DNA of 49,465 nucleotides from contig DATKAN010000049.1 in assembly GCA_035498035.1 (NCBI GenBank), forward strand, positions 1 to 49,465, given 5' to 3'. The position numbers and the translations under genes are program-made. This DNA is from Nitrospiria bacterium (lineage in GTDB: Bacteria; Nitrospirota; Nitrospiria; JACQBZ01). Positions within the stretch are counted from its first letter, which is position 1. The number at the start of each line of letters is the position of its first letter. Positions 9,993 to 43,797 of the stretch are shown in pieces. The notes under the pieces were generated by a model. It saw only the letters and a program-made list of their open reading frames with translations. It was not told the origin of the DNA and searched no databases.

Positions 9993-10095
9993 GAATCAGC
10001 GGGCAACGCGAGCGAGAGGGGGAGGACTTCGGCGAGCTCAGTCGAGCCGCTCCATGCGGCTCTGCCAATGGAGGGGGCGACGCGAGCCCCTGCAA
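9993..10095 (+). repeat. Intergenic repeat R1 (copy A) in the leader of the J-domain gene
   Basis: It runs from AATCAGCGGGCAACGCGAG through GCGAGAGGGGGAGG to the core GAGGGGGCGACGCGAGCCCC. It matches copy B before nadE over both ends; the middle stem differs. It lies between the promoter and the start codon, in the same orientation to the gene as the other copies. Confidence 0.75.
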
Positions 10096-12016: not shown

Positions 12017-12050
12017 ATAAGGGGCTCGCGTCGCCCCCATCCCGCTCGTC
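12017..12050 (-). repeat. Intergenic repeat R1 (copy D), short form
   Basis: On the minus strand: GAGCGGGATGGGGGCGACGC followed by GAGCCCCTTAT. The core is identical to copies A and B, but the upstream stem region is missing. It ends a few bases before the ribosome site of the 44-residue gene. Confidence 0.7.
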
Positions 12051-16820: not shown

Positions 16821-16912
16821 ATAGGGGCTCGCGTCGCCCCCTCCGCCGGCAAAGCCGGACGGAGCCTCCCCCTCTCGCTCGCCGTGCTCGCTGGGTTGAT
16901 TTTCGCAGGCGG
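16821..16912 (-). repeat. Intergenic repeat R1 (copy B) before nadE
   Basis: On the minus strand the element begins AAATCAACCCAGCGAGCAC, passes GCGAGCGAGAGGGGGAGG and a stem CCGTCCGGC/GCCGGCGG, and ends GGGGGCGACGCGAGCCCCT. This is the most complete R1 copy here. It fills most of the gap between the ANTAR gene and nadE. Confidence 0.75.
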
Positions 16913-20674: not shown

Positions 20675-20832
20675 TTATCAGTGGGGGCCCGTGCGGGTTA
20701 CACTGAGGAATCCGGCCGCCTCACCGACTCGGCGGCGTTCGTCCCCGGCGCTCCTTACCCGTCGCGCCACGAACCCTCCGATGCCCCCACACCCCGCGCT
20801 CGGACGGGCGGAGCCCGATCCTCGCTTATTAT
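20675..20832 (-). repeat. Intergenic repeat R2 (copy F), long form, before aroKB
   Basis: On the minus strand it starts AAGCGAGGATCGGGCTCCG with hairpin CGGGC/GCCCG and continues GTGGGGGCATCGGAGGG. A long variable hairpin region follows, ending CCCGCACGGGCCCCCACTG. TGGGGGC and GCCCCCA can pair to close a large stem. It lies between aroC and aroKB and ends eight bases before the start. Confidence 0.75.
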
Positions 20833-36131: not shown

Positions 36132-36221
36132 TGTTAGTGGGGGCCCGTGCGGCCAAAATGAATCAAGGTCCTCCGAGGCCCCCGAACCCCGCGCTTGCGA
36201 CCCCAGAGCCCGTCGCTCCCT
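36132..36221 (-). repeat. Intergenic repeat R2 (copy G) between rpsM and rpsK
   Basis: On the minus strand: AGGGAGCGACGGGCTCTGGG, then GCGCGGGGTTCGGGGGCCTC, GGAGGACC, and finally CCGCACGGGCCCCCACTAAC. Both ends match copy F and the rplE copy; the 5' hairpin is more diverged. It ends shortly before the rpsK start, inside the alpha operon. Confidence 0.65.
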
Positions 36222-36605
36222 TTACGCGGTGGCTTCCGATTTCAGCTTGATGCCGATCGATTTCTTGGGGCCCTTCCGGGTCCGCGCGTTGGTCTTCGTC
36301 CGCTGCCCTCGTAGCGGGAGTCCCTTGCGATGTCGCAACCCGCGGTAGCTTCCGATATCCATCAGCCGTTTGATGTTCATCGAGACTTCTTTGCGGAGAT
36401 CCCCTTCCACTTTATAATCCCGCTCGATGGAATCTCGAAGCGTGACGATTTCGTCTTCCTTGAGATCCTTCACCCGTTTTTCCGGATTCACCCCCGCCGC
36501 CTTCAGGATCCTCATCGATGTCGATCGGCCGATTCCGTATATGTAGGTCAAGCCCACGGCGACCGTTTTGTCTCTCGGAAGGTCCACTCCCGCAATTCTG
36601 GCCAC
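36222..36605 (-). CDS. rpsM: 30S ribosomal protein S13
   Basis: 127 residues: [60 protein letters not shown] and [20 protein letters not shown] are uS13. It contacts the P-site tRNA and 50S subunit. It follows rpmJ, separated by a gap with a palindromic hairpin. Confidence 0.98.
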
Positions 36606-42600: not shown

Positions 42601-43260
42601 TTAAGTTCGAAACGGCAACCCCAATAACCCTAACAAGGCCTTGCCCTCATCGTTGGATCTCGCCGTGGTCCCGATCGTGATGTCCATCCCGTGCGTGGCC
42701 ACCACATCGTCATATCGGATCTCCGGAAAGAGGAGCTGCTCCTTGAGGCCCAGGCTGTAATTTCCGCGGCCGTCAAACGATTTCGGCGAAACGCCTTTAA
42801 AATCCCGAATCCGGGGAAGCGCCACATTAAAAAATCGGTCCAAAAATTCGTACATCCGTCCGCCGCGAAGCGTCACCTTGCACCCGATGGCCATTCCTTG
42901 CCGCAACTTAAACCCTGAAATCGATTTCTTGGCGCGGGTCACGACCGGTTTCTGGCCGGTAATGAGGGTGAGCTCATTGACGGCCGCCTCCAACAGTTTG
43001 GCGTTCTGGATGGCTTCCCCCATTCCAACGTTGATCACGACCTTCTCAAGACGAGGAACCTGCATGGGATTTTTGTAGGAAAATTGCTTCATCAAGTCGG
43101 GGACAACTCTTTCCCGGTATTTCTCCTTCAGGCGAGGCGGAAGGGACTGCTCCTGGGCCGGTTTTGTTTTTTCCTTGGCCTTCTCCTTGGCCTTTTCCCG
43201 GTTTTCCGTCTTGGGCGACTTCGCCTTTTCTGGTTTTGCTGTCTGTTTGGCCTTGGCCAT
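42601..43260 (-). CDS. rplE: 50S ribosomal protein L5 with Lys/Glu-rich N-terminal extension
   Basis: 219 residues; usual uL5 proteins have about 180. The first about 40 residues ([20 protein letters not shown], then [18 protein letters not shown]) are a charged, probably disordered extension. The uL5 fold follows: [89 protein letters not shown] precedes the ATG at 43260, so the extension is really encoded. The gene sits behind a nested R1/R2 repeat. Confidence 0.97.
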
Positions 43261-43277: not shown

Positions 43278-43422
43278 TTACAGGGGCTCGCGTCGCCGCT
43301 ATTATCTGTGGGGGCCCGTGCGGGCTCCGCTCCTCCGATGCCCCCCCGGCGCTCGGACGGGCATAGCCCGATCCTCGCTTTCACCGGCCAGGCCGGACGG
43401 AGCCTCCTCTTCTTGCTCGCGT
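43278..43422 (-). repeat. Nested repeats R2 inside R1 (copy C) between rplX and rplE
   Basis: On the minus strand the R1 5' part (CACGCGAGCAAGAAGAGGAG, GCTCCGTCCGGCCTGGCCGG, 43383-43422) is followed by an R2 copy at 43300-43381 (AGCGAGGATCGGGCTATGCC through CCCGCACGGGCCCCCACAG). The R1 3' core GGCGACGCGAGCCCCTGTAA (43278-43299) then follows, just before the rplE ribosome site. The order suggests that R2 was inserted into an existing R1 copy. Confidence 0.7.
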
Positions 43423-43435
43423 GTCCGGCCGTCCA

Positions 43436-43783
43436 CTACCCGCGATCGATGATTTCCCCGCATTTCTTGCAGTAACGGAGTTTTTGACCGTCATCGATGC
43501 GGCGCATCCCGACCCGCGCCGTCTTTCCGCAATTTTGACAGACGATCATGACATTCGAAAGCTGGATCGGGCCTTCCTTCTCAATGATCCCGCCCTGCCG
43601 GTGTTTCTGGCTCGGCTTCATATGCCGTTTGATGATATTCAGCTTCTCGACGAATACGCGGTGGGTCGAGCGATCCACTTCCAGGACCTTTCCGGTTTTT
43701 CCCTTGTCCTTTCCGGTCATGATCATCACGGTGTCCCCTTTTCGGACCCGGAATTTCGGAAGGACGATTCGCGATTCGCTCAT
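43436..43783 (-). CDS. rplX: 50S ribosomal protein L24
   Basis: Start at 43783 (MSESRIVLPKFRVRKGDTV), six bases after GGGAG; an ATG at 43795 is the alternative. 115 residues. The KOW motif (KGDTVMIMTGKDKGKTGKVL) and KRHMKPSQKHRQGGIIEKEG mark uL24. The C-terminus has two CxxC pairs (CQNCGK and CKKCGE), the zinc-finger form. Confidence 0.97.
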   Translation of the reverse strand: MSESRIVLPKFRVRKGDTVMIMTGKDKGKTGKVLEVDRSTHRVFVEKLNIIKRHMKPSQKHRQGGIIEKEGPIQLSNVMIVCQNCGKTARVGMRRIDDGQKLRYCKKCGEIIDRG

Positions 43784-43797
43784 CACGGCTCCCATGA

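Follow-up and report, generated by a model that had tools for sequence, protein, structure and literature searches.

A nested pair of short hairpin-rich repeats between rplX and rplE in a Nitrospiria genome: local insertion or ready-made arrival?

Introduction

How one short repeat comes to lie inside another within a ribosomal operon is the question raised by the rplX-rplE gap of G000, a draft genome of 2.67 Mb from an uncultured lineage whose nearest named rplE matches come from groundwater 'Nitrospirae bacterium' MAGs. The rplX stop and the rplE start are 175 nt apart, and a sequence-only reading of the window (the whole stretch of 49,465 nt analysed here) proposed that a repeat, R1, is split in this gap by a whole copy of a second repeat, R2, which had moved into it. 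In MAGs of the class Nitrospiria, R1 and R2 are short mobile repeats, approximately 70-100 bp long and rich in hairpins, similar in kind to REP, RPE or MITE elements. What follows shows that the nest is real and that the repeats are mobile and tolerated; a jump at the rplX-rplE site itself is, in our view, unlikely. All genomes compared are draft MAGs, and G000 was read as stretches around motif matches.

Results

The proposed split is borne out by the layout of the sequence. Between rplX (43436..43795, minus strand; an ORF, with tblastn matches in relatives) and rplE downstream of it (42601..43260, minus strand; an ORF found in relatives), the R1 head comes first, then a linker, an entire R2 and finally the central hairpin and tail of R1; all parts share one orientation, the reverse of that of both genes. 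On the plus strand the left part of R1 (43278..43297) comprises an AT-rich leader, TTACA (43278-43282), and the head GGGGCTCGCGTCGCC (43283-43297), an exact match to the head pattern. The linker GCTATTATCT follows (43298..43307, plus strand); a linker of about 10 nt is present in nearly all G000 composites, and this one includes an ATTAT leader that a logo of upstream bases places before solo R2 copies as well. The whole R2, GTGGGGGCCCGTGCGG...CCTCGCTT (43308..43380, plus strand), has the stem GTGGGGGC/GCCCCC, the conserved loops CCGTGCGG and TCCTCCGAT, and a second hairpin ending CTCGCTT. The right part of R1 (43381..43420, plus strand) was assigned by alignment to the plain R1 at 16824-16893 and to genome copies, and consists of the central hairpin CACCGGCCAGGCCGG...GGAGCCTCC, with its 3' arm GGCCGGACGGAG, and the tail CCTCCTCTTCTTGCTCGC, ending GCTCGC.

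The general plan of R1 is an AT-rich leader (..TTATA), the head GGGGCTCGCGTCGCCCC, a central hairpin CTCCACCGGC-AAA-GCCGGATGGAG and the tail CCTCCCCCTCTCGCTCGCnnTGCTCGCTGG; that of R2 is an ATTATA leader, a stem N[T/C]GGGGG..CCCCC[A/G]N, the same two loops, constant between copies, and then the second hairpin ending CTCGCTT. With at most one mismatch allowed, G000 holds 81 matches to the R1 head and 24 to the R2 head, as against 0 for reversed control patterns of the two heads, so the copy numbers are far beyond chance. Head and tail are common to about 80 R1 copies and the interior is variable: R2, a third repeat R3, an extra hairpin or an AT-rich palindrome is located at the feet of the central hairpin or close to them. 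The window itself contains, besides the plain R1 (16824..16893, plus strand; head, central hairpin and tail), a truncated R1 of head only (12021..12038, plus), an R1 with an R3 module beside its central hairpin (9997..10090, minus; R3 at 10025-10048), a solo R2 that has a long additional loop and immediately precedes an aroK-like start on the minus strand (20681..20827, plus) and a solo R2 between rpsM and rpsK (36137..36222, plus). R3 (GGCTCGACTGAGCTCGCCGAAGTC) has 32 copies in G000, the one in the window included, often beside an R1 central hairpin, and the AT-rich palindrome (GATTTACCATTTTCGATTCACC...GTAAATCGTAAATTG) forms a fourth type of R1 interior at L016, L057, L094, L095, L096, L100 and L102.

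By a simple coding-score gene caller, which gives approximate boundaries, some 90 copies lie mostly in intergenic regions, their heads no more than about 35 nt from the edge of a gene. In 59 of the 82 assignable copies the head side faces a reverse-strand start codon, often 5-30 nt away, and in the other 23 it faces a stop; copies also occur in coding sequence, between convergent genes and adjoining tRNA genes. For instance, R1 lies in frame in leuS, adding 33 residues relative to PDB 6q89 (G000 contig C26, L014, around 1400-1530), forms the first 28 residues of miaA relative to 2qgn, with an ATG overlapping the mutL stop (L007), and supplies a TamB-like gene with 27 residues that are absent in G002 (L062), the sister species of the same genus. 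R2 likewise lies in frame in genes for an ABC-2 permease (27 residues; L045) and a TetR regulator (about 32 residues; L046), in both cases absent in G002. In one further protein an R1 probably separates the signal peptide from the FGE-sulfatase domain, and the in-gene R1 copies share one reading frame (..EGAT[R/Q]AP..), which gives EGATRAPA in LeuRS and EGATRAPI in MiaA. That the elements are tolerated in transcripts and are not strong terminators, as had been suggested for the rplX-rplE site, is consistent with these coding copies and with the site itself, where no intrinsic terminator with a U-tract was called in the element and the Shine-Dalgarno sequence of rplE, GGAGGAAGG, is intact after it. 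No role of the composite at this site was detected.

Stem positions of R2 covary across 60 copies from several genomes: the outermost stem pair is Watson-Crick in 50 of 60 (30.6 in shuffles) and one pair of the second hairpin in 53 of 56 (17.1 in shuffles). Covarying stems, together with head sides that so often face start codons, are what might be expected of an RNA regulator under selection in the 5' UTR of the gene that follows. We consider this reading highly improbable, however: the element is absent from the same leader in the sister species, the downstream genes are unrelated, some copies are within coding regions, between convergent genes or beside tRNA genes, and wobble pairs show no strand preference, G-U pairs in the R2 stem being about equally rare on both strands (16 versus 14 cells). 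A known riboswitch or RNA family was rejected as well, since the element has no Rfam match at the gathering score and only weak matches, with E of about 3 or more. As the stems covary without strand-specific wobble, the alignment suggests that they act as DNA hairpins rather than as one-strand RNA. An H-type pseudoknot in R2, GTGCGG/CCGCGC, proved unsupported, GTGCGG being constant while its partner varies, and thermodynamic RNA folding of the window copy was unexceptional (z of -1.3 and -0.8). Elsewhere in the window a TPP riboswitch lies at 822-925 on the minus strand (71 bits).

The rplX-rplE nest is not a unique local event, an idea that we rejected on finding at least 17 R1::R2 composites in G000, in which R2 begins 24-26 nt past the start of the R1 head and the flanks are mostly unrelated. 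The window composite is up to 87% identical to others. A short R2 loop marks 14 of 25 composites, as compared to 2 of 35 solo copies (Fisher p 2e-5), and on an R2 tree, a weak one built on 80 columns, the composite and solo labels change 6 times, as compared to 19.4 when shuffled, with 0 of 500 shuffles as low. Two R2 copies beside tRNA 3' ends were excluded from the composites; these solo copies, in G000 (L049) and G003 (L186), sit right after the 3' CCA of apparently the same tRNA in two genera, possibly as a conserved insertion.

Both short-loop 'solo' exceptions are copies from G009 (family f4), and both are actually nested in R1, in opposite orientation and on that side of the central hairpin which faces the tail. 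G009 has 19 exact R2 copies, each lying in an R1 of the opposite orientation, with a single junction and unrelated flanks; this holds for the copies with enough surrounding sequence, and one that is cut upstream by a contig end matches on its other side. Identity among the G009 composites with full context (n=13) is 94% inside and 54% in the flanks. In both arrangements, read along R2, the 3' end of R2 adjoins the central hairpin of R1 on its 5' side. These junctions indicate that R2-in-R1 nesting arose at least twice in the class, in opposite orientations, and, because one junction recurs at loci with unrelated flanks, that the composites amplify as units.

The sequence-only reading had proposed a check of relatives for R1 without R2 in the same gap. 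The gap is empty in G002 (rplE 92% identical), measures 82 nt without an R1 or R2 core in G001, showed neither R1 nor R2 in G003, G004 and G006, and holds a plain intact R1 without R2, in the same orientation, in G005, which belongs to another genus. The plain R1 of G005 would fit a jump of R2 into an R1 already resident between rplX and rplE and since lost elsewhere, and entry of a module into an R1 is documented at a corA-like site (below). A local jump nevertheless calls for several losses, as G001-G004 and G006 have no R1 or R2 core in the gap, and would have to reproduce the junction of 16 other composites; we therefore hold it to be unlikely. Probably the rplX-rplE composite arrived ready-made, a join at this spot being the less likely course. 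The notion that R2 moved into R1 thus stands at the level of the families and at the corA-like locus, but is not the favoured reading at rplX-rplE, whose junction recurs at 17 loci.

At the 5' site of the corA-like gene, G002 and G006 have a plain R1; at the same position the R1 of G004 has an additional hairpin and that of G000 both R2 and R3, and G001 and G003 have no R1 there. As this R1 is common to four species and carries differing modules, modules do enter pre-existing R1s. Alternatively, homologous recombination or gene conversion might swap interiors among R1 copies, such that many composites arise without transposition of R2; the approximately 80 copies with common head and tail and varying interior would suit such exchange, as would the corA-site R1 being consensus-like in G002 and degenerate in G000. 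Swapping can neither make the first nest nor fill empty sites, however, and solo R2 copies turn over too (those at L045 and L046 are absent in G002). We regard it as a possible but rather doubtful general explanation, and homologous exchange of interiors may add to the variety. G000 has two corA-like regions, C22 (L064) and C31 (L077), one with an inverted plain R1 and the other with R1, R2 and R3, reflecting either a duplication or mixed strains in the MAG.

Other sites also differ between relatives. The R2 between rpsM and rpsK is common to G000 and G002, a remnant in G003 and absent in G001 and G005, and about nine further G000 copies are missing or partial in the matching G002 stretches. 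At least one family had been thought to be or to have been mobile; both are or were, given the empty rplX-rplE gap of G002, the plain R1 of G005 and the many other presence/absence differences. The target-site duplication that was to be sought at the junctions was not found: none was constant in about 10 filled/empty pairs, in which diverged flanks leave the exact ends uncertain. Because of this we infer transposition as such from the distribution of the copies.

Mobilisation of R1 and R2 would be in trans, by a putative hairpin-recognising enzyme. Of the 11 genomes searched, 10 have Y1 transposase genes; in none of 30 such loci from 10 genomes is the Y1 gene bracketed by R1 or R2, and an isolated R1-like motif occurs in only 2 of the 30. 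A RAYT-flanked REPtron was accordingly rejected, and a role for a RAYT in the mobilisation is a lead only. Carriage by a plasmid or phage was rejected too, since neither the plasmid nor the phage collection gave a match at E 0.01.

Discussion

The account that we think likely is one of ancestral nesting, amplification as a unit and ready-made arrival at rplX-rplE after the split from G002. On at least two occasions in the class, an ancestral R1 would have received an R2, and a putative enzyme that works in trans on hairpins of DNA would then have copied the chimera as a unit. One such unit would have come to rest in the rplX-rplE gap, past the stop codon of rplX and short of the RBS of rplE. 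It would be tolerated there because this RBS was spared and because the element does not act as an intrinsic terminator. More tentatively, we speculate that R1 serves as a landing pad: R2 (and R3) would home, either way round, to the foot of its central hairpin, and the chimera would become a new self-spreading element. If this were true, one parasite would be exploiting another by structure-specific targeting, in two independent cases.

Several known repeat systems are comparable. Rickettsia palindromic elements (RPE; PMC10969869, PMC3733652) resemble R1 and R2 in being palindromic, on a scale of about 100-150 bp, with several families per genome and with both intergenic copies and copies inserted in frame in protein genes of unrelated kinds (here leuS, miaA and the TamB-like, ABC-2 permease and TetR genes). 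The host phylum is unrelated, and the comparison concerns element type rather than homology; R1 and R2 differ, moreover, in that most copies are intergenic and that, where one family is nested in another, the nest is amplified as a unit. The GTAG/CGTC-tagged REPs and BIMEs (PMC3733652, PMC2817692) are likewise small dispersed hairpins near gene boundaries, some of them intragenic and some inserted within other palindromes as mosaics; nesting itself has precedent, since REP dimers inside other palindromes have been reported (PMC3733652). A REP is, however, a single palindrome of 20-40 bp, as compared to the three hairpins of R1, and the REPs described in these papers lie mostly at gene 3' ends (PMC3733652, PMC2817692). 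The GTAG-like tag is partial in R1: RTAG overall precedes the first stem, with TA in most copies and position -3 being G in 23% and A in 53%. Enterobacterial RU/ERIC repeats and bacterial MITEs (PMC2759123, PMC10969869) are similarly non-autonomous mobile repeats, about 100-170 bp long, carry open frames and are found in genes, but R1, unlike a MITE, has no terminal inverted repeats, head and tail not being complementary on inspection of copies.

No description of Nitrospirae repeats of this kind was found in the literature searched, most subscription journals lying outside it. With these elements the Nitrospirae join the few groups in which palindromic repeats interrupt essential genes, leuS among them, without breaking the reading frame. 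The sites compared here form a natural series, from empty site to plain element to nested element to amplified nest, of how tiny transposase-less repeats gain modules and re-amplify. They also hold a warning, in that ribosomal operons and repeat-broken contigs in such MAGs carry these inserts. At the G009 loci L335-L353, several R2 copies lie at contig ends, where the repeat seems to break the assembly.
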